NCBI GenBank assembly: GCA_024681515.1
Contig: JAILAR010000188.1
Location: forward strand, 1 to 35,394
DNA length: 35,394 bases
Origin: Eubacterium sp.
GTDB lineage: Bacteria > Bacillota > Clostridia > Lachnospirales > Lachnospiraceae
Direction: 5' to 3'
Shown: piece after piece, positions 6,324-31,475 of the stretch
Position numbering within the stretch: position 1 is the first letter of the stretch
How the letters are laid out: the number at the start of each line of letters is the position of its first letter
The notes under the pieces: generated by a model
Database searches by the model: none
The model's input: the letters and a program-made list of their open reading frames with translations, nothing else
Told to the model about the DNA's origin: nothing
Translations under genes and position numbers: made by a program

Positions 6324-6346
6324 TGCACTTCGCGCCTACGCGCTTC
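6324..6346 (-). repeat. Leader hairpin motif, copy 1
   Basis: The sense strand reads GCGCGTAGGCGCGAAGTGC. GCGC arms flank a GTAG loop. The gene-proximal edge is 22 bp before the ATG of the ABC1-family gene, upstream of its AAGGGG Shine-Dalgarno. Confidence 0.65.
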
Positions 6347-6392
6347 CTTATATCATCGCTTCGTACGTTTTTTCACTAAAACCCCAGCATTC

Positions 6393-6421
6393 ATTATAAC
6401 ATTCATACGCCTGCCTCACAA
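6393..6421 (-). promoter_or_regulatory. Promoter of the ABC1-kinase operon
   Basis: The minus strand shows a -35 of TTGTGA and a perfect -10 of TATAAT separated by 17 bp. The -10 ends 92 bp upstream of ATG 6301, so the leader RNA would contain leader hairpin copy 1. Confidence 0.75.
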
Positions 6422-6460
6422 CCTGTGATTACCACGTCTTACAACCCTCTTACGCACATA

Positions 6461-6501
6461 AAAGAAGCGGAGAACCGCAGTTCAATCACTACAGCTCTCC
6501 G
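6461..6501 (-). terminator. Probable terminator after the GGDEF pseudogene
   Basis: On the minus strand CGGAGA pairs with TCTCCG across about 22 nt containing further weak pairs, and GCTTCTTTT follows. It starts a few bases after the degenerate gene's TAA. The stem is short and the loop long, so this is moderate evidence. Confidence 0.45.
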
Positions 6502-6506
6502 TTCGT

Positions 6507-8020
6507 TTATTCACTCTCTCTGCGTTTCTTTCCGATCCGCTTGTTCTCGTACATTGTCTGATCGGCGCGGCGGATGGTATCCTCCACGGTTTGATCGGTC
6601 TCTGGATCATAGATCGCGATACCCATGGCAGAGCAGGCGGCTGGCGCCTTTCAGATAAACATCTCCCTTGTCGTGACCGTAGACATCATTCACCCGCTTC
6701 AGATTGTCGCAGTCAAACATGCCGATGGCAAAATCAAAGGATCCCGTCTTATCCAGTCTCTTCTGCAGACGCTGCGTATATTCCGTAAATGCGCCCTTGT
6801 TCTTGACATTTGTAAGGGAATCCACATAGACCTTCGAGTCCAGCTCCTTCACCTTCATGTGTTCTTTGCTGGCGAGCAGGCGTCATCACCACGCCCATCT
6901 GCTCACCGTCATACACCGTCAGGTTTGACGGGAACATACAGTCCGCCTCTCCGGACTTTACGGCTTCCAGTGCTTCCGCTGCCGTGGAGTAACAGATGGG
7001 TTCAAATTCAATTTCCGCATTCTCCATGCAGGTGGACGCATATGCCAGCGCATCCCTCAGGGCACCCGTCAGCTCTCCTGTATCCGGATCCTTTGCGCAG
7101 AACGCAAGATAATTATCCTGATATGCCACCCGGATCTTGCCGCCATGCTCCGAAAGCCACTACAGCTCATCCGGCGAAAGGTAATTGTTATTTCCGGAAT
7201 CCCTCAGATATTTCTCATAAAGCTGCTGATTGTAATAGATATTCTCATCCTGGATTTTACTCATGGCTTCATCCAGTTCTTTCAGCAGTTGCGGCTTTGC
7301 CATGCTTACACCAAAATAGAAATCCGAAGACCCGATCTTCCAGACCGGTTCCGTAACCTTCGCATCCCCGAAGGAATCCAGCATGACATACGCATCCATG
7401 TCTCCATCCGTCAACATCTGAAGTGCCACATCCTGATCCACGGAAAGCTCCGTAAGTTCCACTTCCACGCCACGCATCTTCGCCCAGTCCCGGAACATTT
7501 CCACCATGATACTTCCGCGGTCCACACCGACCTTCTTTCCGGTCAGTGTCTGCGGATCATCCGCCTGGATCTCCTTATTCTTCGGAGAAATGAAGACATA
7601 GTAGGATTCCGTTCCCATAGGCAGCGAGGAATAGACGATGTATTTCGACCGCTCCTCCATATAGGACACGTCACTGAGCATATCGATCTCGCCGTTTTTC
7701 AGCATTTCCAGCAGCTCCGGCCAGGTTCCTTCCACATATTCATAGTTCCACCCCGTATAGGCAGCCACCTTCCGCTGGTATTCATAGCCGTAACCGGACC
7801 TGCGCCCGGTTTCATCCTTGTGGTGGAACTTTGACTCATACCAGCCGACACGGACAGTCTCCCGCCCATTGCTCTTATCTTCTTCCTCAGCCAGCACATG
7901 ATGCGGCAGCACAAAAAAAACAGCCAGAAGGACGCACAGGAGCACTGACAGAGTTCGGCGGAGAGAGATCCTCACCGCTTTATTATTTAATTGTTTTTTG
8001 AACTGCCTTTTGAAATACAT
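6507..8020 (-). pseudogene. Decayed periplasmic-binding-domain diguanylate cyclase
   Basis: The remains show a BvgS-type sensor: signal sequence or membrane anchor (SLRRTLSVLLCVLLAVFFVLP), a first SBP_bac_3 solute-binding domain (about residues 50-280), a second such domain, and a GGDEF cyclase. At least three lesions are visible. First, an in-frame TAG at 7160-7162 between the two binding domains, after which the frame continues coherently (WLSEHGGKIRVAYQDNYL). Second, a junction near 6870-6884 where the second binding domain stops after GVVMTP and jumps out of frame to a linker, SKEHMKVKELDSKVYVD; most of that domain and the membrane segment are missing. Third, a junction near 6625-6640 where LKGASRLLC jumps to MGIAIYDPETD. 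That removes the GGDEF signature and roughly 60 residues. The start is ATG 8020 with AAGGG upstream. The gene cannot make a working cyclase. Confidence 0.85.
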
Positions 8021-8149
8021 CTTTGAACCCTTCATACGCACACTTGTGCATGCTATAAAATAACACACTTTCGCTCTTTTCGCAATCCTGTCAGGAACTA
8101 TATTCATGTATATTTCTGCCGACACCCTGTACATAATATAAGGCAAAAC

Positions 8150-8203
8150 AAAAGGCGGCAGTCCCGGAACGTTGGTGTGCTACGTATCCGTCTGCCGCCT
8201 TTT
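8150..8203 (-). terminator. Terminator of the lichenase gene
   Basis: A hairpin has the arms AAAGGCGGCAG and CTGCCGCCTTT around a loop of about 30 nt, with A and T tracts on both sides, so it could act in either direction. It lies about 110 bp beyond the lichenase stop and upstream of the pseudogene. Confidence 0.75.
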
Positions 8204-8311
8204 AGATCCAACACTTTCACATTTGTGCATCGCGGTTACACCCTTTGCGTTTTCACGCCGTGATCCCACGCTTCGTGTTTTCTCACTATGTGACTGTCAT
8301 TTTCTCATCAA

Positions 8312-9616
8312 TTAGTTTGCCGTATCGATCCAGAAAAGCTCTGCATCACTGTCAGCATCCTTGTACTGCTCGATATTTGCGCAGTTGTCCTTGCTTCCCC
8401 AGGAGATGTTCAGGCACTTGCCGCTCTTACGGTTCACGATCTTGTACGTGTTGTTGCGGGAAGCCTTGAACTCCCACTCCTGGCTCTGGCTGCCGTAATA
8501 ATCCCACTGATGTACATTTGCGCCATCCCATGTAGCATCGTCCTGTACCGTCAGAACCTTGCCGGTGGACACGTTCTTGATGATATAGTATCCGCTGGAC
8601 TGGCGCTCGATCTTCCATCTCTGGTTGTTGCCGCCCTTGTAGGTATACTGAATGATATTAGTTCCGTTGTCACGACGATTGCCGTTTACATCCACTGCAA
8701 GGCCGCTGTTCATGTTGATGATCTTGTAGGTCTTGCTGCTGTCGAACTGACCGCCGGAAGACTGGGAAGACTGATTATTGTTGTTATTATTGTTATTCCA
8801 GGTGTTGTTATTATTGTTATTGTTGTTGCTGCTCCAGCTGCTGGTATTGTTGTTCGATGTGTTGCTGCTGCCCGAAGTTGCAGACGGAGAATCATAGGAT
8901 GCCCAGTCATAATATGCCGTAAGACTGGTTCTTCCGTTGAATGCTCTTAACCAGTCATCCACACCCTTGCCGTTCCATGCGTTCATCATGATCTTGCCGG
9001 GCGTTTTCGGGATGTCACGGGTTGCGGTATACACTGCCTTGCCGTCCACATACCAGGTGATGGCTCCCTGAGACCAGTTAAAGCCATAGGTGTGGAAGGA
9101 CTGCGATGCATCAAATCCCAGATTGTACAGATACTCATGATTTGCTACGCCGTTGGTGTAGTAATTGAACTGTACCTTTGTTGTGTCATAGCCCAGGAAC
9201 TCGATATCGATCTCATCCCACTGAGTTCCGTCAGACGGACCTGTGTAGGTAAAGAACGAAGATACAACGCCCGGATTCTTGATGGGCTTCATGCTGACCT
9301 GATACAGGCCATAGCCGAAATACTCTTTTGTACGGTATTCACCTGCGGTGTAACCGCTCCAGTCTCTATCGATGGTGATCGCCATCTGGCCGTTGTTAAA
9401 CTTTACATTATCCGGCTTCCATGTGCAGTCGAACATGTCCCCATTGGACCAGTTGGACTTCTCAAATTTACCGGAATCGTGATAATCAAAATCCATTCCG
9501 TAATGTGTTCCGTTCCATGCAGAAGCTGCTTCAGCTTCCGGAGCCTTTCCGACCTGAAGGCTTCCGATTGTCAAAAGTGCGCCCAGAGCAAGTGCGAAAA
9601 ACCCTTTCCTTTTCAT
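8312..9616 (-). CDS. Secreted GH16 endo-beta-1,3-1,4-glucanase (lichenase) with ricin-type lectin domain
   Basis: The product should be exported and cleave mixed-linkage beta-glucans of cereals or lichenan. It has a signal peptide ending in APEAEA/A, then a GH16 beta-jelly-roll domain (about residues 32-250). The catalytic motif is DEIDIEFLG, with nucleophile E135, D137 and acid/base E139. A low-complexity linker of Asn and Ser (about 252-292) leads to a C-terminal beta-trefoil of ricin/CBM13 type (about 295-434) with QRWKIE and QEWEF repeats. ATG 9616 is chosen over an in-frame TTG at 9634 because AAAGGAG precedes it. The gene has its own upstream region and terminator, so it is likely monocistronic. 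A palindrome (9762-9777) in its upstream region may be the operator. Confidence 0.93.
8770..8870 (-). repeat. AAT/AAC microsatellite encoding the Asn-rich linker
   Basis: Runs of AAC and AAT codons encode two blocks of eight Asn joined by TW, within a Ser/Asn linker between the GH16 and lectin domains. Such trinucleotide runs are prone to in-frame length change. Confidence 0.75.
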
Positions 9617-9761
9617 TATCCTTCTCCTTTGCAATATTTCCGTACATATCCTCGTTTCACCGCATTTTTTCTTCCGTTTTTTCCGGTTTCACCGAGGATT
9701 CCCCAAATGTTACGTGATATCTGTACCGGTTCAGATGTCCTTCATGTGCTCACTATAATAC

Positions 9762-9777
9762 GAATCCATACGGATTC
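9762..9777. promoter_or_regulatory. Palindromic operator candidate upstream of the lichenase
   Basis: A perfect inverted repeat, GAATCC-GTAT-GGATTC on the minus strand, sits about 145 bp before the start codon. It is immediately followed by TATTATAGT, a plausible -10, in an AT-rich stretch. The 6-4-6 spacing suits a dimeric repressor or activator. No matching regulator gene is adjacent. Confidence 0.45.
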
Positions 9778-9882
9778 TATATAGTTTTCATTGTGTATTT
9801 TATGTTTTAATTACATAATGATAAAATATTTAGAAAAATGGCAATTTTACCAATTCTTTTATTGCAACCTGCACGAAAGGCC

Positions 9883-9922
9883 AAAAAAAAGATGTGCAGA
9901 TTGTTGATCCGCACATCTTTTT
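9883..9922 (-). terminator. Terminator of the sodium symporter gene
   Basis: On the minus strand AAAGATGTGC pairs with GCACATCTTT around a 13-nt loop and eight T follow. It lies about 60 bp beyond the symporter stop. With the operator at 9762-9777 and the 12-bp repeat at 9940-9999 it accounts for most recognisable structure in the 367-bp gap 9617-9983. Confidence 0.9.
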
Positions 9923-9939
9923 CTGATTTCTGTTTATAT

Positions 9940-9999
9940 TTTCCGATTAGCTTTCCAATTAGCTTTCCAATTAGATTTCCAGGTTACTTTCCAAGGTTC
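9940..9999 (-). repeat. Five 12-bp tandem repeats spanning the symporter stop codon
   Basis: Five consecutive 12-bp units (plus-strand consensus TTTCCAATTAGC) run through the last codons, the stop and about 44 bp beyond. The two central copies are nearly identical and the outer ones diverged. In the symporter's reading frame the downstream copies read NLIGKLIGKLIGK after the TAA. Confidence 0.8.
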
Positions 10000-11528
10000 T
10001 CCGTCTCAGGAACCACAACCGTCTTGTCATAGCAGGTAAACATCTGGTCTACCTTTGTCCTGTCCACCTTCGGTGTAAGAGCACTTACGATGGGAACGAT
10101 GATCAGACCTGCAACCATGGTAACGGCACCCGCATTGATGGGGGATTTGATCACCGGCACGAACATGTTGAAGATGGTGAAGCCGACACCCAGAATGTAG
10201 CTGGCCCATACGGCTGCTTTGGAAATATTCTTTGAGTAGAGGCCGTACAGGAACGGTGCCAGGAAGGCTCCGGCCAACGCACCCCAGGAATAACCCATCA
10301 GCTGCGCGATGAAGGTCGGCGGGTTAAAGGCAAGGATAACCGAGATCACGATGAATGCAACAACGAAGAGCTGCATCAGACGAAGCTGTGTCTTGTCCTT
10401 CATGGGTTTCTTCTTCAGAGGCTTGATCAGGTCCAGCGTCAGCGTGGAACTGGATGTAAGAACCAGAGAAGAAAGTGTGGACATGGATGCCGAGAATACC
10501 AGCACCACCACGATACCGATCAGGATGTCCGGAAGGGTCGACAGCATGGCCGGCACGATGGAATCGTATGCAACCTTGCCGGTTTCTGCATCCACGATAC
10601 CGGGAGCATCTCCGAAGAGACGTCCGAAACCGCCCAGGAAATAGCATCCGCCTGCAATGATGATCGCAAAAAATGTAGATACGATGGTTCCTGTCTTAAC
10701 AGCCTTCTCATCCTTGATGGCGTAGAATTTGTGGACCATCTGCGGAAGTCCCCAGGTACCCAGAGACGTCAGAACGATAACACCAAACAGAGCCAACGGA
10801 TCCGGTCCGAAGAAGGAAGCGAAAAGTCCCTGACTTCCCTGCAGCGCTTCGGTCGTAACGGAATTATCTGTCGGAATCTGAGACAGGCTCTGAAGTGCCG
10901 CGGTGAAACCGCCCTTTCCTGCCAGAACCGCGCCAATCACAAGACAGATACCGATCAACATGATGATACCCTGAATGAAGTCATTCAGAGCCGTTGCCAT
11001 ATAACCGCCGATCACGACGTATGCACCGGTAAGCGCTGCCATGATGATAACGCAGATCCGGTAATCGATATCAAAGGCCATCCCAAAGAGACGGGACAGA
11101 CCGTTGTATACACCTGCGGTATAGGGAACCAGGAATACAAATGCGATAATGGATCCTGCGATACGCAGTGCCTTGGAATCAAACCGCTTTCCGAAGTATT
11201 CCGGCATCGTCTTCGCATCCAGCTGCTGAGACATCAGTCTGGTACGGCGTCCCAGGATCAGCCATGCCAGAAGACTTCCGATGAAAGCATTTCCCAGTCC
11301 GATCCAGGTCGATGCCACACCGAACTTCCATCCGAACTGTCCTGCATATCCGATAAATACTACGGATGAGAAATAAGATGTACCAAATGCGAAAGCCGAG
11401 ATCCACGGCCCTACCGTACGTCCGCCCAGGACGTAATCATTGACATTCTTTGCCTTATTGCGGGAATAGATTCCAACTCCCAGCATCATGGCAAGGAAAA
11501 CGACGAGAAGAATGATTTTGACAGCCAT
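9984..11528 (-). CDS. Sodium:solute symporter (SSS family, PutP-like)
   Basis: This 514-residue polytopic membrane protein has the length and about 13 membrane segments of the SSS family. Family signatures include an N-terminal NDYVLGGRTVGPW loop, ASTWIGLGNAFIGSLLAW, a YVVIGGYMATALNDFIQG segment matching the conserved G-G-x-x-A-x-x-x-x-D-x-x-Q pattern, and FSASMSTLSSLVLTSSSTLTLD with the Ser/Thr residues that bind Na+ in characterised members. Sequence similarity to PutP suggests proline or another small solute, but the substrate cannot be fixed from sequence. ATG 11528 is preceded by GAAGGAG. It is a single-gene unit with a near-perfect promoter at 11620-11648 and a terminator at 9883-9922. 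The stop codon falls within a tandem repeat. Confidence 0.9.
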   Translation of the reverse strand: MAVKIILLVVFLAMMLGVGIYSRNKAKNVNDYVLGGRTVGPWISAFAFGTSYFSSVVFIGYAGQFGWKFGVASTWIGLGNAFIGSLLAWLILGRRTRLMSQQLDAKTMPEYFGKRFDSKALRIAGSIIAFVFLVPYTAGVYNGLSRLFGMAFDIDYRICVIIMAALTGAYVVIGGYMATALNDFIQGIIMLIGICLVIGAVLAGKGGFTAALQSLSQIPTDNSVTTEALQGSQGLFASFFGPDPLALFGVIVLTSLGTWGLPQMVHKFYAIKDEKAVKTGTIVSTFFAIIIAGGCYFLGGFGRLFGDAPGIVDAETGKVAYDSIVPAMLSTLPDILIGIVVVLVFSASMSTLSSLVLTSSSTLTLDLIKPLKKKPMKDKTQLRLMQLFVVAFIVISVILAFNPPTFIAQLMGYSWGALAGAFLAPFLYGLYSKNISKAAVWASYILGVGFTIFNMFVPVIKSPINAGAVTMVAGLIIVPIVSALTPKVDRTKVDQMFTCYDKTVVVPETENLGK

Positions 11529-11619
11529 TGTTACTGCTCCTTCATGAGAATCTGCGTCATAAGCATCTTCCGGTTTGTTTATCCGTTCACCGTTTTAACG
11601 CTTTAACGCCATGAAGTGA

Positions 11620-11648
11620 ATTATACACAGTTTAGGATGGTATGTCAA
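11620..11648 (-). promoter_or_regulatory. Consensus sigma-A promoter of the symporter gene
   Basis: On the minus strand TTGACA and TATAAT are separated by exactly 17 bp, a full consensus match. Downstream, the leader contains a direct repeat, GCGTTAAA-GCGTTAAAACG, that could be an operator. The start codon is about 90 bp downstream of the -10. Confidence 0.92.
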
Positions 11649-11722
11649 CCCGGATCTTATGCTTCGATCCGGGTTTGTTTTATACTTCGGTCCGAGTTTA
11701 GCACGGTTTTCGGTCCCGTGCT
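11647..11722 (-). terminator. Two hairpins after the FIST-GGDEF gene
   Basis: The first hairpin downstream of the stop pairs AGCACGG with CCGTGCT (11700-11722). The second pairs AACCCGGATC with GATCCGGGTT (11647-11675) and ends at the -35 of the symporter promoter. The second has its T-rich tail on the plus strand, so termination on the minus strand is inferred from position. The 19-bp stretches TATGCTTCGATCCGGGTTT and TATACTTCGGTCCGAGTTT between them are diverged direct repeats. Confidence 0.5.
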
Positions 11723-11731
11723 CGAGACGGG

Positions 11732-13519: not shown

Positions 13520-13619
13520 ACTCACCCTCCGATTATTTTCGATTACAAACAAATGCGCTCCATGCGCTATCACATTACAGACAAATTCCGATCATTCTTT
13601 TACGTGTTTGAGGCCGTGC

Positions 13620-14243: not shown

Positions 14244-14262
14244 TATGTAAACCTCTGTTTTG

Positions 14263-14289
14263 TTCCATACTTCGCGCTTACGCGCTCCG
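14263..14289 (-). repeat. Leader hairpin motif, copy 2
   Basis: The sense strand contains GAGCGCGTAAGCGCGAAGT followed by ATGGAA. GCGC arms close a GTAA tetraloop. Its edge is 19 bp before the DUF4317 start codon. Confidence 0.75.
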
Positions 14290-14360
14290 TGAATTTATGT
14301 CCGTATTCTTATATTTTATCACACTCTGCATCGATTCAAAAGTATCTAAAAAAAAACCCT

Positions 14361-14404: not shown

Positions 14405-14458
14405 GAAAACAAGATTTTATTCTGACCGAAATTTCGTATTCCCGGTCATTTCAGGAGA

Positions 14459-17674: not shown

Positions 17675-17691
17675 TTTCACACTTCGTGTTC
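17675..17691 (-). repeat. Leader hairpin motif, partial copy 3b
   Basis: This half-copy (sense CACGAAGTGTGAAAT) keeps the gene-proximal part of the motif and lacks the GCGC hairpin. It sits 14 bp before the regulator's GTG start and directly upstream of AGGAGG. Confidence 0.5.
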
Positions 17692-17698
17692 AATGGCC

Positions 17699-17810
17699 TT
17701 TGTGACCGCCCATAGAAGGCGGTCACAAACCCTCCCTTCGGTCGGGCACAAACACCTTCGGTATTTGTGGGCATGTACGGAATCAATTCTCCTGATGGAG
17801 AATCGATTCC
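17699..17810 (-). other. Three-hairpin array in the kinase-regulator gap
   Basis: Three strong stem-loops are packed into 112 bp. One is a perfect 12-bp stem with a 7-nt loop (17699-17729, arms TTTGTGACCGCC). The second is a 10-bp stem with one mismatch and a 3-nt loop (17747-17769). The third is a 14-bp stem with one mismatch and a TGAT loop (17779-17810). None has a T-tract suited to termination. In one minus-strand frame the region is open for about 60 codons (containing GIGIDSPSGELIPYMP and KGGFVTAFYGRSQR) but has no initiation site at its head, so it is not called as a gene. Confidence 0.75.
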
Positions 17811-17812
17811 TA

Positions 17813-17839
17813 TTCCATACTTCGCGCTGACGCGCTCCG
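17813..17839 (-). repeat. Leader hairpin motif, copy 3a
   Basis: The sense strand contains GAGCGCGTCAGCGCGAAGT, a full copy with a GTCA loop. Here it is far from the start codon because the hairpin array lies between it and the partial copy at 17675-17691. Confidence 0.7.
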
Positions 17840-17882
17840 TAGATTATCATAGAGCACGTGTTTCCCTTTTTTATGCCTTAAA

Positions 17883-19118
17883 TCACGTTTGCAGTCCGTG
17901 CTCTGCGCTCACCGGAAGTTCTACCACCGAGCGAAATCCATCTTCATTTGAAAATTCCGCGTAGCCTCCGCACCTCTCCGCATAGGACAGGATCTTCTTC
18001 AGGCCGAAGCCCTGTTCCAGACGCTTCTTCTCATTTTCCTTACCGTAATCGCTGTGACCGTTATCCTTCACTGTAAGCCGGATATGCGCGGAATCTCCGC
18101 TGAGCTTAACCAGAAAGGTATCCGCATGTCCGTGCTTTACACCGTTTGTCAGAAATTCCTGTAATACACCGGTCAGAAATTCCAGATGCTCGTGCGGAAG
18201 CAGCATGCCCTCCGGGAACGGATCATAAAGCCGATCACATTTTCGTTCCGTATCCATAACGAATTCGTCCATGATGCTGTCCATTCCCGCGATCAGGTCC
18301 GTGATCGGAACATCCGCACTTTCCTGATCCAGGGTTCGCACGGCCCGCCTGATAGACTCCAGACTGCCGCGGATCCGTTCATTTGCATCATTCATCCGCT
18401 TGCGTGCTTCCTCCGGTTTTACGTCATAAAGCATATCTGCCGCGTCCAATGTCATGATGGCTGCCGTGATATTATGACCCACACTGTTATGAATGTTCCG
18501 GCTGATGTTTTCCCGCTCGGTAAGGCGGGCATTCTTGTCCGCGAGAAAGCTTGCCTGGGCCAGCTGACGGTTCAGTTTCTTCTCACGCATTTCGCTGACG
18601 GAAGATTGGCGAAGACGCTCCCGCTCTGACAAACGTTTCTGCCGCTCCACGCAGATCAGATGCTTAACCAGAAGCAACACCGTCACACTTGCCATAACCG
18701 CCATTGCCCAAAGAAACTGCCGTGCGACGAACTGACCATTCAGATCCGTCCAACGCTCTGTCACACCTGTCCCCAAAAAAAGGATGGTTGCAGCCGAAGG
18801 CGGAAGCCAAAACCACAGGCCCAACGTACCGTGATGCCCGCTTTGTACGTTCATGGAATCCTCACGTACGGGTTCACTCTCCCCCACCGGCCAAAGCACA
18901 GCGAAAACGATGTATCCGGGCCAGAAACCGGAAAGGACACCGAAACATGCAGCCAGTATCCATTTCAGCCATGTGAGATGAATGCCCATGGAATGCGCCG
19001 TGACAGCCACCAGAAGAAGTCCTGCCGCAAGGAGCAGCAGGAGGGGATGTTCGGACCGGATCATGGACAATCCGGCCAAAACAGCGATGATGAAACTGTC
19101 AATCAATGCAAACAGCAT
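17883..19118 (-). CDS. NarL-family sensor histidine kinase (HisKA_3)
   Basis: The 411-residue kinase has about five or six N-terminal membrane segments with short loops (residues 1-165), a charged helical linker, and a HisKA_3 dimerisation domain with phospho-acceptor H210 in ERENISRNIHNSVGHNI. The C-terminal HATPase has the N-box EFLTNGVKHGHAD, the G1 box VKDNGHSDYG and GFGLKKI. The lack of a large external loop suggests it senses signals in or at the membrane. Its ATG overlaps the stop of the upstream hydrolase as TGATG, so I place the start at 19118 rather than seven codons earlier inside that gene. Translation is probably coupled. Its partner is the response regulator at 16989-17660. Confidence 0.92.
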   Translation of the reverse strand: MLFALIDSFIIAVLAGLSMIRSEHPLLLLLAAGLLLVAVTAHSMGIHLTWLKWILAACFGVLSGFWPGYIVFAVLWPVGESEPVREDSMNVQSGHHGTLGLWFWLPPSAATILFLGTGVTERWTDLNGQFVARQFLWAMAVMASVTVLLLVKHLICVERQKRLSERERLRQSSVSEMREKKLNRQLAQASFLADKNARLTERENISRNIHNSVGHNITAAIMTLDAADMLYDVKPEEARKRMNDANERIRGSLESIRRAVRTLDQESADVPITDLIAGMDSIMDEFVMDTERKCDRLYDPFPEGMLLPHEHLEFLTGVLQEFLTNGVKHGHADTFLVKLSGDSAHIRLTVKDNGHSDYGKENEKKRLEQGFGLKKILSYAERCGGYAEFSNEDGFRSVVELPVSAEHGLQT

Positions 19119-22342: not shown

Positions 22343-22353
22343 AAATATCTCCA

Positions 22354-22380
22354 TTCCACACTTCGCGCTTACGCGCTCCG
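22354..22380 (-). repeat. Leader hairpin motif, copy 4
   Basis: The sense strand contains GAGCGCGTAAGCGCGAAGT followed by GTGGAA. It has the same GCGC arms and GTAA loop as copy 2. Its edge is 11 bp before ATG 22342, overlapping the approach to its Shine-Dalgarno. Confidence 0.75.
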
Positions 22381-22603
22381 GTGAAATCATTACTTCGCAC
22401 GTATCTTTCACAAACATGCCTTTCTCCTTTGTTCGAGTCCGTGCCACGTTCTGATTTATTCCGGACTCCCTCATCTCAGGATAACACAAAACCAGCCCGA
22501 AAGCATTCAACCCGTAGTCTAAAAACACCCGCCCCAAAACATTCGCCTGGAAATATCTGATCCGAAAACCACCCGGCAGGAAATACCTGTCAAGCATGTA
22601 TAA
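22381..22603. other. Gap upstream of the 242-aa phosphoesterase
   Basis: Apart from the alternative start at 22417 and its AAAGGAG, I see no gene, clear promoter or repeat here. The frame stays open upstream to 22654, but the translation has no recognisable domain. Confidence 0.5.
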
Positions 22604-22636: not shown

Positions 22637-22666
22637 CATACATATATGGTCCAACTTCTACGTGCC

Positions 22667-23032: not shown

Positions 23033-23044
23033 AGGAACCTCCTA

Positions 23045-23063
23045 TTCCATACTTCGTGCTTAT
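23045..23063 (-). repeat. Leader hairpin motif, copy 5 (degenerate)
   Basis: The sense strand reads ATAAGCACGAAGTATGGAA. The hairpin arms are lost but the AAGC-CGAAGTATGGAA part remains, 12 bp before the histone-like gene and directly before AGGAGG. The TAA stop of gene C (23060-23062) lies within it. Confidence 0.6.
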
Positions 23064-24271
23064 GGCTGAATGTACATAGCGGGACGGACAGGTCTGGGAG
23101 ATTCGTTGCGGCTGCCGTCATAGTCGATTTCTCCAAACCAGCCAACTTCTGCAGCATAAAGGTCATTATGACCGACCGTACGCAGCCACCAACGGCAGGT
23201 GCCGTTAAACTTTTTCTTCTCAACCGGATCAGATTCTTTCCATTCATATGGATCTGCTCCGTGGTTCTTTGCATACGCCGTAGGCTTGGCCGCACGCTCT
23301 ACGCTGTGCCCATCTTCCCGACCTTCTTCGGTGTCATCATTCTTAAAGTATTTATTTGCCTCCTCGATGCTGAGCAGGAAAACCTTGTCCTCTGTTTCAT
23401 AATTATCAATGTATCCGGAGTCCGAATTAGCATCACCCTTCACGATCGTCGTGGGGATCATAGCCTTCTCCGCCTTCGTAAAGGACTCATCCAGGAAGGT
23501 AGTGTTCAGCCATGTCCTGAGAGTAGAATATTTCCAGTCTACACCTACGTGTTCTTCGTCATAGTAATCAGCGCTAATCAAAGCATACCGGCTCACCACC
23601 AGCAGCTTTCCGTCCGCCGTCTTATCCAGAACGATCCACTCGATGTCCTCTCTTCCGTTGGAGAGATCGTCATCCTGTTCATACAAGCCGAAGAGGATCA
23701 CATCCCCCACCTTCGCAGTTGCAAGTTCCGATTCTATCAGGGCGCCGTCATGGCCGAAGGTATACTCCTTACCGCCGATGGTCCGTGTTCCGGTAACCAT
23801 AACCCCGCTGGCATTGAAGAAATACCATTTCCCTGATATCTTTTTCCAGCCCGTGACCATAACCCCGTTGCTCTTAAAGAAATACCAGTTTTTTGTAGAC
23901 TGGTTCTTATTTGAAGTCTGTTTCCATCCGGTGACCATGACGCCTGAGCCGCTGAACAGGTACCACTTTCCCTCAATCTGCTTCCAGCCTGTCACCATGC
24001 AGCCGCTTGCATCGAAATAGTACCACTTGCCTTTAATCTGTTTCCAGCCCGTCACCATGTAGCCGCTTGCATCGAAGTAATACCATTTTCCCCCGATCTT
24101 TTCCCAGGTATTCTTCGCATAAGACCCATCGGAATATGAATACCACCAGCCCTTCGCATTGTGCCTCCATTTTCCCGATGCCGCCTCCGACACTGCCCCG
24201 CTCCCCATCACCTGCGGCAGCAGCATGCCCAGGATCAGGGTTGCACAACATAGTTTCTTCCCTCTTTTCAT
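23060..24271 (-). CDS. Secreted choline-binding-type repeat protein with DUF6273-like domain (C)
   Basis: This 403-residue third paralogue has a signal peptide ending near GAVSEA/A. The lead-in GWWYSYSDGSYAKNTW precedes six aromatic wall-binding repeats (about residues 55-185); one carries an insertion, SNKNQSTKN. The DUF6273-like domain (about 190-403) has VILFGLYEQDDDLSNGRED, STLRTWLNTTF and DKVFLLSIEEANKYF. Its terminal part is more divergent: WWLRTVG replaces WWLRSPG, ending in VRPAMYIQP. The start is ATG 24271 with GGAGG upstream. It follows ktrA by 25 bp, so it may be transcribed with the potassium genes although function gives no reason for that. Confidence 0.85.
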   Translation of the reverse strand: MKRGKKLCCATLILGMLLPQVMGSGAVSEAASGKWRHNAKGWWYSYSDGSYAKNTWEKIGGKWYYFDASGYMVTGWKQIKGKWYYFDASGCMVTGWKQIEGKWYLFSGSGVMVTGWKQTSNKNQSTKNWYFFKSNGVMVTGWKKISGKWYFFNASGVMVTGTRTIGGKEYTFGHDGALIESELATAKVGDVILFGLYEQDDDLSNGREDIEWIVLDKTADGKLLVVSRYALISADYYDEEHVGVDWKYSTLRTWLNTTFLDESFTKAEKAMIPTTIVKGDANSDSGYIDNYETEDKVFLLSIEEANKYFKNDDTEEGREDGHSVERAAKPTAYAKNHGADPYEWKESDPVEKKKFNGTCRWWLRTVGHNDLYAAEVGWFGEIDYDGSRNESPRPVRPAMYIQP

Positions 24272-24296
24272 GTTACCATCCTCCATTAAAAAAAAT

Positions 24297-24941: not shown

Positions 24942-24955
24942 TTGAATTAATCCCC

Positions 24956-26335
24956 CTAACCCACAAAGAAATTACCGTCTGCATAACTGATCTTATTCTT
25001 ATGCTCGGTATCGTATCTGAAGAACAGCGCCATGGAGATCGGTCCGATACGTCCGAGATACATGGCCAATATGATGATCCACCTTCCTACCGTGTTCAGG
25101 GTCGGTGTGAGTGCCCTGGACAGACCCACGGTCGCCGTGGCGCTGAAGGCTTCGTACATGCCATCCACCAGTCCCACCCGGTTCGTCACCATAACTGCGA
25201 TCAAAAGCACGATGGTCACTCCGAAACTGAAAAGAACGATGGCCGAAGCTTTGTGGATCATTCCCGAGGTGACCCGGCGTCCGAAGGCCACATTCTCCCG
25301 ACGGTTTCGGATAAATGACACTCCGTTGATCAGCATGACAAACAATGTAACTGTTTTCACACCGCCGGCGGTTCCCACAGGAGACCCTCCGATAAACATG
25401 AAGAAGCACCCCAGGAAACTGGTGGACTCTTCCAATGCCTGCTGCGGTACCGCCGCAAAGCCCGCCGTTCGGAACGTAACCGACTGGAAGATGCTGTTAT
25501 TGATCTTATCCCCGAGAGAGAGATTTCCCAATGTATCCGGATTGTTATACTCCAACCCGAAAACGATGATCGCACCCAGGAAGATCAGGGACAGCGTCAG
25601 AACCATTACCAGCTTTGTATGTTCATTGAAATGCTTGATAATAGTCCGAAGCGGATATTTCTGCCGGATCCCCCGCCGGAGATTCCGGAACACATCGATC
25701 CAGACCACGTATCCGAGACCGCCCATAACGATCAGCATCATGGTATTGTACAGGACCAGCGGATTTGTCTGATAACTGATCAGACTGTCCGGTCCCAGGA
25801 TATCGATGCCTGCGTTACAGAAAGCGGAAATCGCCGTAAAGACCGAGTACCAGATGCCCTTCCCCACACCAAACTGAGGGATAAACGTGATCATGTAGAT
25901 CAGCGCGCCGATCATTTCCACCACAAAGGTCCCTTTAAATACAGCGATCAGGAACCGTTTGACACCGTTCATGGTGTTCAGATTAAAGGAATCATGGATC
26001 AGAAGGGAACTGGACAGGGACAGTTTCTTATGCACCATCAGCATAAGGACGGTGGTCACTGCTATGATCCCGAGGCCGCCCAGCTGGATCAGGATCAGGA
26101 TCACGATCTTCCCGAACAGACTCCAGTAGGCAAATGTATCCACCACTACAAGTCCCGTCACACAGATCGATGTTGTCGAGGTAAAAAAAGCGGTGGTAAT
26201 ATCCGCGCCCCCCGGTCCTTCCTTTGCGACAGGAAGCATAAGGAGCAGTGTTCCCAGCAGGATCGCGCCCAGGAAACTGATGGGGATCAGCTGTGCGGAT
26301 TTCAGTCTTCTTTTTTTCTTTTTTGCTGTTTCCAT
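24956..26335 (-). CDS. ktrB: KtrB/TrkH-type potassium transporter membrane subunit
   Basis: The 459-residue membrane protein has four M1-P-M2 repeats. The four selectivity-filter loops are visible as TSICVTGL, AFCNAGID, FRTAGFAA and TATVGLSR, each with the key glycine. A gate-like loop GGSPVGTAGGVKT follows the third repeat. The N-terminus is basic (KKKKRRLK). It imports K+, probably Na+-dependent as in the Ktr family, and works with ktrA directly downstream. The ribosome binding site is weak. The promoter is at 26432-26461, divergent from the PHP gene. Confidence 0.93.
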   Translation of the reverse strand: METAKKKKRRLKSAQLIPISFLGAILLGTLLLMLPVAKEGPGGADITTAFFTSTTSICVTGLVVVDTFAYWSLFGKIVILILIQLGGLGIIAVTTVLMLMVHKKLSLSSSLLIHDSFNLNTMNGVKRFLIAVFKGTFVVEMIGALIYMITFIPQFGVGKGIWYSVFTAISAFCNAGIDILGPDSLISYQTNPLVLYNTMMLIVMGGLGYVVWIDVFRNLRRGIRQKYPLRTIIKHFNEHTKLVMVLTLSLIFLGAIIVFGLEYNNPDTLGNLSLGDKINNSIFQSVTFRTAGFAAVPQQALEESTSFLGCFFMFIGGSPVGTAGGVKTVTLFVMLINGVSFIRNRRENVAFGRRVTSGMIHKASAIVLFSFGVTIVLLIAVMVTNRVGLVDGMYEAFSATATVGLSRALTPTLNTVGRWIIILAMYLGRIGPISMALFFRYDTEHKNKISYADGNFFVG

Positions 26336-26431
26336 TGTATACTACCGTTTTTATGTTTTTGCGTCTTATACTCTTTGCCAATGTCGGCCAAAGTCAGAAC
26401 GCACTACGTGCTTATTTTATCACAGAACTCT

Positions 26432-26461
26432 GTATTACGAAAGTAAAGAAATAACAGTCAA
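26432..26461 (-). promoter_or_regulatory. Promoter of ktrBA
   Basis: On the minus strand a -35 of TTGACT and a -10 of TAATAC are separated by 18 bp, giving a leader of about 90 nt before ktrB. For the divergent PHP gene, TTGCAC and TATCTT 18 bp apart (26464-26493, plus strand) are a weaker candidate. Confidence 0.65.
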
Positions 26462-26527
26462 TCTTGCACCGCCGCCCACCCTTATGGTATCTTGATGTTA
26501 CTGTATTACAGACAGGAGTGACAGACG

Positions 26528-27334
26528 ATGGATTATATTTACGAAACACATATGCATACCTCCGAGGCAAGTGCCTGCGCCGGCACCCCCGGTCGGGATT
26601 ATATCGAGTACATGATTGCTGCAGGCTACAGCGGTATGATCGTGACGGATCATTTCTTTAACGGAAACAGCCGGGTTCCCCGGGATCTTCCCTGGGCCGA
26701 TCGCATAGAGCAATACTGCAGCGGCTATGAGCACGCACGAGAGGCTGCGGAAGTTGTCAATGCAGTTCGGATCAAAGGAAACGCGAACGCTGACCTTTTC
26801 ACTGTTCTCTTCGGCGTGGAGTATAATTTTGAATGCGATGAATACCTGATCTACGGTATCGATAAGGACTGGCTGCTTCGAAACCCGGACATTCTCTCCC
26901 AGTCCCGGAAAGAAGTGTACGACACGGTACACGCCGCCGGTGCCATTATGGTACAGGCGCATCCGTACCGGGAGCGGGGCTACATCGAAAAGATCCATCT
27001 GACGCCGGACATCTGTGACGGTGCGGAGATCTTTAACGCAGGAAATCCTCCCTGGCAGGACGCCCTGGCGTATCAATATGCAACGGAGCACCGTTTTCTT
27101 CCCTCCGCCGGCTCCGATATCCATCGGCTTGGCCAGCATTATATGGGCGGAATGCAGTTTCCGTACAGGATCGAAACCATAGATGATTATGTCCGTGCAT
27201 TTCTATCCGGAGACGGAACGCCGGTGTTCTGCCGGGATGTAACGGATCCGAAAGCCCGGTTCCGCCCGGTGGTGGATGAACCGGAGCTTACGGTCCCCAC
27301 AAAGCTTCCTTCGCTTCCGGTGGTTTTCCACTAA
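26528..27334 (+). CDS. PHP-domain metal-dependent phosphoesterase
   Basis: This is the only plus-strand gene in the window. The 268-residue protein has the PHP metal ligands H8-x-H10 (ETHMHTSEAS), D41-H42 (VTDHFF), E in FGVEYNF, H in VQAHPYRERG and the terminal SDIHR. Similar stand-alone PHP proteins hydrolyse nucleoside or histidinol-type phosphates; the substrate here is unknown. AGGAG lies 11 bp before the ATG. It ends 7 bp from the convergent membrane-protein gene with no clear terminator between them. Confidence 0.9.
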   Translation: MDYIYETHMHTSEASACAGTPGRDYIEYMIAAGYSGMIVTDHFFNGNSRVPRDLPWADRIEQYCSGYEHAREAAEVVNAVRIKGNANADLFTVLFGVEYNFECDEYLIYGIDKDWLLRNPDILSQSRKEVYDTVHAAGAIMVQAHPYRERGYIEKIHLTPDICDGAEIFNAGNPPWQDALAYQYATEHRFLPSAGSDIHRLGQHYMGGMQFPYRIETIDDYVRAFLSGDGTPVFCRDVTDPKARFRPVVDEPELTVPTKLPSLPVVFH

Positions 27335-27341
27335 CCTGCCC

Positions 27342-28097
27342 TCACAGCAGGACCGCGATCAGCGCGATATAGCAGATGGTCTTCGGAACCATCAGTATAC
27401 CCATTTTCGGGGATTTACGTGCATAAAGGACCACGGAGAGATAGAATACAAAGCTGAACGCCACCAACACCGCCATGAGCACAAAGGAGCCTGCCGGCAG
27501 AAAACTCAGCAGGATCTCTCCGTTATGCACCTTCACATAATTCATCAGCAGAAAAATGATCATGGTCACACCCATCAATGTAAACGGAATGTTTCGAAGG
27601 ATCGACCATTTATGATTCCCTTCCCGGCGAAACCAGTTGTTCTGCGGAAAAAGGCAGAGGACCACCCGAATCACCGCGAATACCATCAACAGAATGAAGA
27701 ATGATCTGTGGAAGCCGTCCAGCAGCGTCGGCCGGATCATACTGATGTAATACGGATACGTTGCATAATAGACTACAAAATACAGCAGGATATAGAAGAC
27801 CGTCATGGTTATGGAGGAGATCATGTTCCCGAGTCCCAGCCAGAACGCATCTTTCTCCCGCTCCCCGCCGATATTGATCACCACCCGCGGGATCAGATGA
27901 AATGCATCTCCGATCATCAACGCAAATGTCATCAACGCCGCAAAGCGGTACATGTCATCCGTAAGATTCACATACTGCGGATCATGCAGACATCGTTTCA
28001 AAAAGATCAATCCCGCGATCAGTGCAAACAGAAGATATCCGATACAGAATACACTCTCACCGATCCGCATACCCAGTGGTTTCTTCTTTTTTTCCAT
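27342..28097 (-). CDS. Polytopic membrane protein of unknown function
   Basis: The 251-residue protein has about seven or eight membrane segments with few charged loops. Visible are SVFCIGYLLFALIAGLIFL, a DAFHLIPRVV segment with buried charged residues, ITMTVFYILLYFVVYY and a C-terminal ICYIALIAVLL. I do not recognise the family. The start is ATG 28097 with GAGGTT upstream, preceded by a GGTATGGAATTAGAGG stretch resembling the tail of the leader motif. It lies 94 bp downstream of the HAMP kinase gene and may belong to its transcript. Confidence 0.75.
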   Translation of the reverse strand: MEKKKKPLGMRIGESVFCIGYLLFALIAGLIFLKRCLHDPQYVNLTDDMYRFAALMTFALMIGDAFHLIPRVVINIGGEREKDAFWLGLGNMISSITMTVFYILLYFVVYYATYPYYISMIRPTLLDGFHRSFFILLMVFAVIRVVLCLFPQNNWFRREGNHKWSILRNIPFTLMGVTMIIFLLMNYVKVHNGEILLSFLPAGSFVLMAVLVAFSFVFYLSVVLYARKSPKMGILMVPKTICYIALIAVLL

Positions 28098-28191
28098 AAT
28101 CCCAACCTCTAATTCCATACCTTTCATATGAATCACGCCGCCATCTTCGGATTCTGCGAATCTGTCAGTAGCGGCATTTGCGCTCCGTTGA

Positions 28192-29487
28192 TCACACTTT
28201 ACGCAGCAGAAGTTCCACTACAAAACCGCCGTCATTGTAATATTCCAGTCCTCCGCCCTGCCGCTCCATATAGGTCTTCACCAGATGCATGCCGATACCG
28301 TAGCCACCCTTATCGGCGGCTACCTTCCCACGATAGTATTTCTCCGTGATAAGGGGCAGTTCTTCTTCCTCCACGCCAGGGCCGCTGTCACTGATACGGA
28401 TACGGATGAATGTGCCGCCCACGTCCTGCACTTCTTCAAACGACACATGGATGTCGGTTCCCGCATATTTGTGAGAATTTCCGATCACGTTATCGATCAC
28501 CTGCTCCATCCGGAGGCGGTCCATATACACCAGGCATTGTGGGATATGGTTGTCCAGAAGGATCCGTCCGTAGTTTTTCAGATTCCCGAAATATGCTTCG
28601 ATCAGTTCCGTGCTTTCTTCCGTCGGATCCACCTTGATCTGCTCCAGATCCTCCATTGTGGCATGAAATACATTTCCCATGATCTGATCGATGGTGGCCG
28701 TTTTTGTGGAAATGCTTTCCAGCTTCCCCACCAGATCCTCTGTCTCCTCGGCGGAAAGCTCTTGCTTCCTCTGCAGCTTCATTTCCATCACTTCGCAGGT
28801 AGCCTGGATGGTGGCCACCGGTGTTTTGATATCATGGCTGAGATCCGCTACCAGCTCCTTCTTCGCCTTCTCCGCCTGTACTTCTCTCTCCCGGGATGCC
28901 TTCAATTCCTCGCGCATCATGTCAAAACTTTCCGTGAAGCCTTCCGACAGAGTATTCTTCCGGATCGGAAGCGGCACCTCCAGATTTCCGCGTGCGATCT
29001 CCGTAGCATAGGCGCTGAGTTCCTGCACCGGACGCACCATGCGAAGATACAGAACCAGGATCAGTACTGCACCCAGAACGCCCACGATCCCCCAGAAGAT
29101 CAGTGCTGCAAAGAAAAACGTTCCACGTGTTCTTTCATAATCATCCGCCGCGTCATCCCAGACCGCCTTTCCCAGATAGGTTCCTCCGGGTGCGAAATCC
29201 ACTACAAGGGCATTTTTGCCGTAATACCCTGAAAGCTCCGTATCCGTCAGGGATTTTGCCATAACGATCCGGCAGTCATACCGCTCCTCCAGCGCATCCA
29301 TGGAGATTCCCGCAAGATAATCCTTCTGCATGGACAGCAGCCGGTCGTTATAAACCGTGATATCCCTGCCCTCATATGCAGTCTTTCCCCGCAGAACCAG
29401 CAGAGCGATCAGCGCCGCTGCCATGAGGACGACATATAGGATTATGATCCTGCGTATTACCTTCAAAGAATTGTTCAACCTCCTCAT
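28192..29487 (-). CDS. HAMP-containing sensor histidine kinase (HisKA/HATPase)
   Basis: The 431-residue membrane kinase has membrane segment 1 (about residues 12-33), an external domain of about 90 residues, membrane segment 2 (about 124-148), and a HAMP domain (MVRPVQELSAYATEIARGN). HisKA has H218 in DLSHDIKTPVA. The HATPase has N-box NVIGNSHKYA, G1 DSGPGVEEEEL and G2 GYGIGMHLV. It autophosphorylates and passes phosphate to the OmpR-type regulator 75 bp upstream. The ATG at 29487 has a poor Shine-Dalgarno while AGGAGG falls inside its first codons, so a later TTG (codon 8) is possible. Confidence 0.92.
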   Translation of the reverse strand: MRRLNNSLKVIRRIIILYVVLMAAALIALLVLRGKTAYEGRDITVYNDRLLSMQKDYLAGISMDALEERYDCRIVMAKSLTDTELSGYYGKNALVVDFAPGGTYLGKAVWDDAADDYERTRGTFFFAALIFWGIVGVLGAVLILVLYLRMVRPVQELSAYATEIARGNLEVPLPIRKNTLSEGFTESFDMMREELKASREREVQAEKAKKELVADLSHDIKTPVATIQATCEVMEMKLQRKQELSAEETEDLVGKLESISTKTATIDQIMGNVFHATMEDLEQIKVDPTEESTELIEAYFGNLKNYGRILLDNHIPQCLVYMDRLRMEQVIDNVIGNSHKYAGTDIHVSFEEVQDVGGTFIRIRISDSGPGVEEEELPLITEKYYRGKVAADKGGYGIGMHLVKTYMERQGGGLEYYNDGGFVVELLLRKV

Positions 29488-29562
29488 CCATCAGCCATCG
29501 ACTGATCGATCAAGTCTCCGTTCGGCAGAAATCGACAAACAATCTGTCAATTCAAATCAATA

Positions 29563-30270
29563 TCACTCTTTATTCTGAGTTTTCAGCATATACCCGGTTC
29601 CCCATACCGTACGGATCAGCTCCGGATGGTTCGGATCCTTCTCCAGCTTCTCCCGAAGTTTCCGAATATGCACGTTCAATGTTCCGTCACTGTAAAATGC
29701 ATCTCCCCACACCTCATCAAAAAGGACTTCCTTCTTCACGATGGTATCTTTATGTTCAAAGAGGCACGCCAGCAGAGCAAACTCCTTTGCCTTGAGGGGA
29801 ATCCGCTGCCCATTCCGTACCGCGGACATCGTAGATTCATCCAATCGCAGGATCACCTCGTCGGATTCCTTCCTCGCCGCATCCTCTTCCAGCTTCTTCA
29901 TCTGCTCCACCCGTTTCAGATTCACACGTACCTTTGCCAGAAGCACGGACAGGCTGTAGGGTTTCTTCACGTAATCATCCCCACCGATGCTGAGCGCTGC
30001 CAGTACATCATCGTCGCTCTGTCTGGCACTGATAAACAGGATCGGAAGCTGCCATTTGGCTCGTACCCTTTTGCAGACTTCAAACCCGGATCCGTCTCCG
30101 AGATTGATGTCCAGAAGCAGAAGGTCCACCGTATTTGTCTCCAGAAAATCATAGCAGGCTCCGGCGCTGCAGACGTATTCCGTACTCACGTCAAACATCG
30201 TAAAGTACTCCTTCGTCATCTTCGCCAGTTCTTCCTCATCATCCACGATCAGGCAATTGAAATGTGCCAT
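29563..30270 (-). CDS. OmpR/PhoB-type response regulator
   Basis: The 235-residue protein has a receiver domain (1-118) with the acidic pair DDE near residue 10 and phospho-acceptor D54 (LLLLDINLGDG). Conserved Ser in FISAR and Lys in YVKKPYS are present. A winged-helix effector domain (about 138-235) contains PLKAKEFALLACLFEH, DEVWGDAF, GTLNVHIRKLREKLE and RTVWGTGYML. The start is ATG 30270 with GAGGAG upstream, 23 bp after the metal transporter stop. The TTAAG boxes at 35129-35170, before the nearby ABC exporter, have the 11-bp spacing that this regulator class recognises, so that promoter is a plausible target. Confidence 0.92.
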   Translation of the reverse strand: MAHFNCLIVDDEEELAKMTKEYFTMFDVSTEYVCSAGACYDFLETNTVDLLLLDINLGDGSGFEVCKRVRAKWQLPILFISARQSDDDVLAALSIGGDDYVKKPYSLSVLLAKVRVNLKRVEQMKKLEEDAARKESDEVILRLDESTMSAVRNGQRIPLKAKEFALLACLFEHKDTIVKKEVLFDEVWGDAFYSDGTLNVHIRKLREKLEKDPNHPELIRTVWGTGYMLKTQNKE

Positions 30271-30293
30271 ATTCCGTCTCCTCGTTCTCCTGT

Positions 30294-31433
30294 TCAATCA
30301 GCCACATCTGCATCCGGTACGATCGCGATCTCATAATCCGGGTACAGAGCACAAGCCTCACCATACAAAGTTTCCAGCGCTTCCTTCCGGTCAACATCAA
30401 AGCTGACCACCACGTCAAACCGGGCTGTCTTCTTCTCCGTATCCGCATAGAACCCATGCATCTGCAAGGCCCAGTCATGCGACAGCACCGTTTTTTGCAG
30501 TTCATTTCGCATCCGGGCAGCTTCGTCATCCGACGTATTATAGGAATACACACCGATCCCCGTCAGGATGATGCCCGTCTTCTGAAATACATCGATCTGG
30601 ATCCTGCGTGTGATCCTGTCCACATCATCCACCGTCAGCGTGTCCGGCAGTTCCACATGTACCGATCCGTAATTTTTATTCGGGCCATAGTTAAAAATCG
30701 TCACATCATACGCGCCCCGGACATGTTCCTCCGCGCAGATGATCTGTTTCAGCTCTTTGATCGTTTCCGGATCTTCTCTTTTCCCGATAATATCATTCAG
30801 TGTTTCGATCATCATTTCGATGCCGGCCTTAATGATAAAGAGTGCGATCAGAACACCGACATAGGCTTCCAGTGAGACTTTAAAGATCAGATAAATGACA
30901 GCCGATGCAAGTACCGATGCGGAAAGGATTGCATCAAAGAGTGCGTCCGAGCCGGAAGCGATGAGCGCTCCGGAATTCACTGCTTTTCCCCGTCGTTTCA
31001 CATACATTCCAAGGATCAGCTTCACCACGATCGCAACGGAAATGATGATGATCGAAACCGAACTGTAATCTGCTTCTTCCGGTGATACGATCTTCTTAAT
31101 TGATTCCACAAGGGATGTAATACCTGCGTACAGGACAAGTGCCGCCACGATCATGGAGCTTAAGTATTCGATCCGCCCGTAACCGAGAGGATGCTTTTTG
31201 TCGGGCTGCCTTGCGCCGAGCTTCGCACCGATGATGGTCACCACGGATGACAGCGCATCCGACAGATTGTTGACTGCATCCAGTATTACGGCGATCGAAT
31301 TGGACACCAGACCGACAAATGCCTTGAATCCCACAAGGAACAGATTGGTCACAATCCCTATGATGCTGGTTTTTACGATCACTTTTTCTCTGTTTGCAGC
31401 AAGAGAGACGATATCAGCATTCTGATTTTCCAT
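30294..31433 (-). CDS. Cation diffusion facilitator metal efflux transporter, probably Mn-type
   Basis: The 379-residue protein has six membrane segments (about residues 20-215) and a long cytoplasmic tail (about 215-379) with the usual ferredoxin-like part (GAYDVTIFNYGPNKNYGSVHVEL) and an unusual extra C-terminal segment. The transport-site residues read N55-x-x-x-D59 in helix 2 (DAVNNLSDALSS) and D-x-x-x-D in helix 5 (GSDALFDA). Zn-type members use H or D with H-x-x-x-D. The N-D-D-D set is the one reported for streptococcal MntE, so manganese export is a better guess than zinc. The start is ATG 31433 with GAGGAGG upstream; a leader motif copy precedes it. The response regulator starts 23 bp after the stop. 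Confidence 0.88.
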   Translation of the reverse strand: MENQNADIVSLAANREKVIVKTSIIGIVTNLFLVGFKAFVGLVSNSIAVILDAVNNLSDALSSVVTIIGAKLGARQPDKKHPLGYGRIEYLSSMIVAALVLYAGITSLVESIKKIVSPEEADYSSVSIIIISVAIVVKLILGMYVKRRGKAVNSGALIASGSDALFDAILSASVLASAVIYLIFKVSLEAYVGVLIALFIIKAGIEMMIETLNDIIGKREDPETIKELKQIICAEEHVRGAYDVTIFNYGPNKNYGSVHVELPDTLTVDDVDRITRRIQIDVFQKTGIILTGIGVYSYNTSDDEAARMRNELQKTVLSHDWALQMHGFYADTEKKTARFDVVVSFDVDRKEALETLYGEACALYPDYEIAIVPDADVAD

Positions 31434-31451
31434 CTCCGGATCCTCCTCTTA

Positions 31452-31475
31452 TTTCACACTTCGCACTAAGGCGTA
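31452..31475 (-). repeat. Leader hairpin motif, copy 6 (variant)
   Basis: The sense strand reads CGCCTTAGTGCGAAGTGTGA. The arms are altered (CGC-CTTAGT-GCG) but the GCGAAGTGTGAAAT tail is kept, 18 bp before the CDF transporter start and just before GAGGAGG. Confidence 0.6.

Follow-up and report, generated by a model that had tools for sequence, protein, structure and literature searches.

The 35,394-nt contig of Eubacterium sp. (GenBank assembly GCA_024681515.1, contig JAILAR010000188.1) analyzed here over its full length, hereafter the window, carries genes for an ABC1-kinase protein, a DUF4317 protein, a histidine kinase and a LuxR-type response regulator, a calcineurin-like phosphoesterase and a cation-efflux protein, among which a GC-rich hairpin followed by a conserved 3' tag recurs. 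The original prediction listed seven copies of this motif, four strong and three weak, sharing one orientation, and offered two readings, a leader element controlling translation or RNA stability and a repeat with a preference for inserting before ribosome binding sites. The strong copies (6324-6346, 14263-14289, 17813-17839 and 22354-22380) were all recovered on the minus strand, with 0, 0, 1 and 2 mismatches to a 19-mer pattern of the motif (0.01 matches expected), and scored 38-53 bits with a model of the hairpin (R2, see below). The weak copies were marginal by R2 alone (12-14 bits, E 0.15-0.52) but carry the exact tag GAAGTRTGRAA in the same orientation, and the original observation as a whole was confirmed. 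The window holds six exact sites of this tag, all on the minus strand, and eight when one mismatch is allowed, versus 2.7 expected. As proposed, six of the seven copies lie close before a minus-strand start codon, and two have a GUAA loop. The exception, 17813-17839, lies ~150 nt upstream of its gene, from which it is separated by a further repeat module and by the weak copy 17675-17691. Table 1 collects the features; the gene that follows 23042-23080, described in the original prediction as histone-like, had no match in a Pfam scan.

Table 1. Copies of the element and associated features in the window (R1, model of the full element; R2, model of the 34-nt hairpin).
Position	Strand	Feature	Evidence
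22348..22456	-	Full element with 3' hairpin and tag, abutting the Shine-Dalgarno of the calcineurin-like phosphoesterase gene (Pfam)	R1 101.2 bits, E 7e-26
22351..22385	-	3' hairpin YAC-GGA-GCGC-GUAA-GCGC-GAA-GUR and tag UGGAAU; the 5' foot has a one-base insertion	R2 46 bits
17807..17913	-	Full element between the histidine kinase and LuxR-type response regulator genes (Pfam)	R1 94.9 bits
17692..17806	-	Second dispersed repeat of three hairpins, beginning GGAATCGATTCTCCATCAGGAGAAT, between element and gene; boundaries approximate	Five sites in the examined DNA of this genome
17669..17723	-	Decayed 3' end of the element (GAACACGAAGTGTGAAATATAGGAGG), preceding the response regulator start	R1 11.8 bits, E 0.17; R2 11.7 bits, E 0.52; exact tag
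14257..14356	-	Intact 3' hairpin before the DUF4317 gene; 5' module decayed or absent	R1 37.2 bits; R2 51.4 bits
6315..6420	-	3' hairpin with a GUAG loop, preceding the ABC1-kinase protein gene; 5' remnant doubtful	R2 37.7 bits; R1 23.5 bits
31446..31525	-	Weak copy before the cation-efflux gene	R1 20.8 bits, E 6e-4; R2 13.8 bits, E 0.15
23042..23080	-	Weak copy consisting of the tag and half of the hairpin, before the putative histone-like gene	R2 12.9 bits, E 0.26; exact tag
8258..8356	-	Possible extra decayed copy, outside the original list	R1 15 bits, E 0.022; R2 8 bits, E 4.6

Inspection of the flanks of genome-wide matches showed that the hairpin forms the 3' half of a two-stem element of ~108 nt, to which many of the genomic hairpin copies belong; in the window these are 17807-17913 and 22348-22456. 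The 5' module consists of a stem of ~8 bp, a GGA/GAA internal loop, a 5-bp stem (GCRCG/CGYGC) and an apical loop of ~38-40 nt that starts with GGACT and contains TAAAGC, the words GACT and AARGC being strongly conserved. The 3' module reads YAC-GGA-GCGC(C)-loop-(G)GCGC-GAA-GTR, then TGGAAT, and pairing of its foot as U-A or C-G accounts for the R in the GTRTGG noted originally. Model R1 (full element) was built from 13 of 14 copies in which a 5' module had been recognized, including both full-length window copies. Model R2 (34-nt hairpin) was built from 22 of 30 loci of this genome, among them the four strong window copies; the eight loci set aside were a palindromic duplicate and seven copies that were odd, nearly identical or of variant length.

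Compensatory changes support the fold, as would be expected of a regulatory leader or riboswitch. When 13 copies were aligned without a model, 89.5% of the cells were paired and 21 cells carried double changes, versus 7.3 in shuffles; of the five measures, only the number of further pair types did not exceed that in shuffles. In an alignment of 73 distinct copies, which is biased toward structure since it was fitted to a covariance model, 91.7% of the cells were paired, the covariation score was 0.284 (0.134 in shuffles, at most 0.086 in slid controls) and none of 500 shuffles reached it on any of the five measures. In this set double changes occur at 14 of 20 pairs, so that the test of the stem suggested with the original prediction turned out in favor of the fold.

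Such a fold is also what the main rival explanation predicts, namely a functional leader RNA. Here the two GGA/GAA-loop stems would be bound by a trans-acting protein or ligand governing the translation or decay of a large and mixed regulon, amplification being the recruitment of genes. Besides the compensatory changes and the conserved apical-loop words, the hairpin itself points to selection on the RNA strand. Its loop was readable in 122 of the 144 R2 copies examined, 81 of these loops are tetraloops and 67 of the 81 are GNRA, several GNRA sequences being represented, and G-U cells are more frequent than A-C cells (40 versus 19), although the copies are related and these counts are not independent. 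DNA hairpins with G-N-N-A loops are stable too, so that the fold alone is no proof of an RNA role. Rfam 15 gave no family match in the window at the gathering threshold, and only a tRNA among 20 loci of this genome at E<=5.

Genome-wide, R1 matched at least 139 times at E<=1e-3 and R2 at least 148 times at E<=10; both counts are lower bounds, 150 candidates having been scored out of 970 and 1194, respectively. A pattern search with up to two mismatches matched 58 times, versus 8 for the reversed pattern, and the 14-nt 3' tag with at most one mismatch 211 times, versus once reversed. A chance origin of the motif was rejected on the latter count and on the 0.01 strong copies expected.

Placement was assessed with 144 R2 copies and their flanks, the four weakest of the 148 being excluded. 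A start codon with a Shine-Dalgarno 4-40 nt further on was found in sense for 94 of the 144 copies and in antisense for two, compared with 178 of 2880 random positions (6%); the criterion is strict, and among the 50 misses are copies that come first in a tandem and copies followed by a weak Shine-Dalgarno. By home-made gene calls, the downstream gene was co-directional in 126 of 129 clusters. Two clusters (C111:16764 and C186:39033) lie between a sense upstream and a convergent downstream gene, the second being followed by GGAGG and an ATG frame of a few codons only, and one (C142:79909) is antisense to both neighboring genes. The end tag was recognized in 136 of the 144 copies; the Shine-Dalgarno core follows it directly (0 nt) in 61 of these and within 0-4 nt in 93. 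Random orientation and distance, looked for throughout the genome, were thus not found. A functional leader RNA would account for this nearly sense-only placement against the Shine-Dalgarno, as would an insertion that recognizes that sequence.

The distribution among relatives bears on the choice. R1, run over 61 genomes (this one, 36 congeneric ones and 24 from other families), matched only in this genome and in the congeneric G019, G017, G036 and G002. R2 matches per genome numbered 136 here, 13 in G019, 6 in G017, 4 in G036, 2 in G002 and 1 in G007, and at E<=0.01 with stricter filters 35 of 40 other congeneric genomes were without a match. Across 392 genomes of the order, only this genome and two weak matches in other genera were found; with 9 candidates scored per genome this is weaker evidence. 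The two (L418 and L419, 29.5 and 27.1 bits) look like chance and were rejected as real copies: the first straddles the point where one frame stops and another starts, its R2 score being 18.9 bits, and for the second R2 gives no match at E<=1. Viral contigs, plasmids and phages gave no match to the two queries used, one exact pattern and one element. The element is nearly confined to one species. Absence from 35 of 40 congeneric genomes is unlike most regulatory RNAs and speaks against a functional leader RNA, as does the absence, chance-like matches apart, from the 391 other genomes of the order, few candidates as were scored in each. In G019, tandem hairpin arrays were observed at C200:3991-4136 (L181; four scored copies, 37 nt apart) and C47:7-106 (L173; three, 33 nt apart).

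Orthologous leaders were then compared by eye at seven sites of this genome, which lie in two syntenic 20-kb stretches. All 15 leaders of G017, G019 and G036 that could be spanned are without the element, while the comparisons L358, L365 and L362 could not be spanned; R2 at E<=1 gave no match near those 15 gaps. The comparison of leaders in related strains, suggested originally as a check, thus uncovered element-free sites. Near C12:30056, 104 nt of this genome stand against 2 nt in G017 between the stop codon and a kept AGGAG, and near C148:16095, 101 nt with three tandem hairpins stand against 14 nt in G036 and 21 nt in G019, AGGAG again being kept; at the five remaining sites the gaps are too diverged to place insertion ends. 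Ten ortholog leaders of four window genes, one of them only partly readable, are likewise without the element. Among these genes, the DUF4317 ortholog leaders of G019, G002 and G017 are element-free, and G036 and G002 lack the copy 17807-17913 in the orthologous gap, as does G017 in the part that is readable. Because orthologous leaders are free of the element and the Shine-Dalgarno is kept at the two clearest sites, the copies are insertions. With regard to miniature inverted-repeat transposable elements, inverted arms are present only around the 5' module, and they vary with compensation.

Some sites are common to this genome, G017 and G019, which would fit genes under a functional leader RNA: G017 L167, G019 L170 and G019 L176 match copies of this genome by their flanking gene starts, and G019 has four tandem hairpins beside the ortholog of the gene preceding C12:33114. 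The family thus predates the species split, but most copies were gained in the present lineage. In the orthologs of C148:18668 in G036 and G017 (L403, L393), a different hairpin, with GGAGTGGC(G/A)AAGCCACGGAGCAATCC in common, was seen where this genome has the element.

Proteins encoded downstream of the copies were scanned with Pfam (104 of 111, seven being excluded by hand as overlapping, short or very long). They contained 144 families, 25 of which were listed, and any one family was common to at most 3 proteins. That the downstream genes are unrelated, seen originally in a handful of cases, therefore holds across these 104 proteins; they are functionally mixed, and the common gene function that marks leaders and riboswitches is lacking.

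The effect of the hairpins on translation initiation was predicted for 87 leaders. Reversing the hairpins cut the predicted accessibility of the Shine-Dalgarno from 0.61 to 0.43, with greater access in the native form for 65 of 87 leaders (p 5e-8), and shuffling (0.604) or removing them (0.594) left it unchanged. A leader that frees the Shine-Dalgarno was considered on the basis of higher accessibility than in other genes of this genome (0.62, n=87, versus 0.44, n=53, p 1e-4) and rejected, the matched controls showing no gain. A promoter in the apical loop was also rejected, a -10-like word being present in only 21 of 71 loops and at scattered positions. In these predictions sense copies look about neutral for initiation and antisense copies harmful, which could explain part of the orientation bias, though not why copies adjoin the Shine-Dalgarno rather than the 3' ends of genes. 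Of the leader element proposed originally, the fold is upheld by compensatory changes, but control is unsupported, given the neutrality of hairpin removal and shuffling and the absence of a common gene class. With these results, and with no Rfam family, a functional leader RNA appears unlikely.

Known repeats were compared through their published descriptions rather than their sequences. Like the element, BOX of Streptococcus pneumoniae is modular, structured and largely limited to one species and its nearest relatives; it is overrepresented between convergent genes, some copies are transcribed, and the authors judge it parasitic (PMC3049150). An ordinary repeat of the REP/BOX type, whose position is merely what selection has left, would accordingly share the size, modular build, species restriction and element-free sites seen here. 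Placement tells against it: the element is nearly always in sense, 5' of a gene and against the Shine-Dalgarno, with 2 of 129 clusters at convergent genes, a raw count without a genome baseline. REPs are also short GC-rich hairpins with many grouped intergenic copies and a possible RNA role (PMC3733652, PMC8266576), but they lie mainly downstream of coding regions (PMC3733652). By contrast, the present element precedes its genes, near the start, and in the alignments, by eye, has feet YAC/GTR and no GTAG or CGTC tag. With that tag absent and no clear RAYT recognized in the assembly, a RAYT-driven REP was rejected. As an internal control, another repeat of this genome, TCATYCTGAG...CGAAGRATC (86 copies), showed no orientation bias (3 sense and 5 antisense among 12 examined), unlike the element. 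An ordinary repeat filtered by selection therefore seems improbable.

ERIC and Correia/NEMIS resemble the element as structured repeats near genes, and those repeats are co-transcribed, the orientation of co-transcribed ERIC mattering for mRNA stability; they belong to other lineages, and the available part of the source mentions no tie to the Shine-Dalgarno (PMC2229807). The TAACTGA repeats of Beggiatoaceae come closest in position, with 169 sets in one genome, most of them close before the starts of mixed genes, and a translational role has been suggested; they are direct heptamer repeats that overlap the expected position of the Shine-Dalgarno, which is then mostly lacking (PMC4679880), whereas the present element is folded and leaves the Shine-Dalgarno intact. 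No description of the element was found in the open-licence literature as judged by titles and the starts of abstracts, nor any mention in the available parts of PMC8040213 and PMC2267715; a search of the same literature with sequences of TCATYCTGAG-like repeats found no paper.

In our reading, the element is an interspersed repeat with a structured fold that has been amplified in one species; it resembles BOX, REP and ERIC in kind but is oppositely placed, that is, 5' of genes, in sense and against the Shine-Dalgarno. At a probability of roughly 60%, it is a small structured repeat that multiplied in one species by entering the gap before Shine-Dalgarno sequences, mostly in sense and a few bases away, in an addressed copy-and-insert spread. 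The target gap would extend from the stop codon of the upstream gene (or the promoter) to the downstream Shine-Dalgarno. Copies would be spread by a non-autonomous copy-and-insert process, and we infer that its address is the Shine-Dalgarno sequence itself, acting either as a strand-specific target or through one-sided annealing of leaders via their common AGGAGG. Such an address would fix orientation and distance together. Selection may in addition retain sense copies, with which the Shine-Dalgarno stays free, reversed copies being expected to cover it. In the mRNA, the two stems would probably be local, translation-neutral structures, possibly serving as a nuclease block or processing site between cistrons. 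The preferential insertion before the Shine-Dalgarno that was proposed originally is well supported by species-restricted amplification, element-free sites, tandem copies and the variety of genes. More tentative is a fuller version, possible but doubtful, in which a selfish or domesticated element of a new kind would use the ribosome-binding site as its genomic address and be copied strand-specifically, throughout the genome, to a position directly upstream of it; its RNA fold, a GNRA hairpin with the GGA/GAA internal loop, would leave the start site open and thereby make insertion between cistrons tolerable.

A close variant of the favored copy-and-insert process dispenses with mobility. Leaders would be exchanged by recombination or template switching at the common Shine-Dalgarno, upstream sequence being copied along. 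This accounts for orientation and abutment without a transposase, and slippage would fit the tandem copies, as would exchange the varied combinations of modules. Some copies have no Shine-Dalgarno, however, and the multiplication of this sequence over other leaders is left unexplained. Exchange is inseparable from targeted insertion on the present data; taken by itself, we give it little credence, even less than a repeat filtered by selection.

Several observations weigh against addressed insertion. In 13 of 136 copies no Shine-Dalgarno core lies within 30 nt past the tag, and a few copies (e.g., L040 and L047) have no Shine-Dalgarno-like sequence beside them, so that the address is not absolute. 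A target duplication was not evident at the sites compared, although no systematic search for one was made. No mobilizing enzyme was identified: the only Y1 match was a partial PF01797 at a contig end, other transposase families not being searched; it reads as an ordinary IS200/IS605 gene, in a draft assembly of 197 contigs. The copies are divergent, and activity of the element may therefore be past. Small and parasitic repeats, moreover, normally avoid leaders and the intercistronic space before genes. The family nevertheless occupies the leader position before about a hundred or more genes and offers a natural experiment on leader evolution, with the testable question of whether a mobile sequence can be directed to translation starts or is retained there because of an RNA role.

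By reading, L040 and L023 precede an intrinsic-terminator-like hairpin instead of a start codon. Two copies of the TCATYCTGAG repeat lie between genes at 34056-34118 of the window, in inverted arrangement. The second dispersed repeat of Table 1 is also present at C21:1860, C109:17078, C62:7929 and C12:46601; it has up to three hairpins (GGAATCGATTCTCCATCAGGAGAATCGATTCC, CACAAACACC..GGTGTTTGTG and GACCGCC..GGCGGTC), on the sense strand before a gene, and in some copies directly follows the tag of the first element, as a modular partner. In G036 (L304, L292) and G017 (L302), the leaders orthologous to those of window genes can carry other hairpin repeats in the place before the Shine-Dalgarno, for example TCATYCTGAGCGAAGCGAAGRATC, of which there are 348 copies in G011 and 231 in G035.

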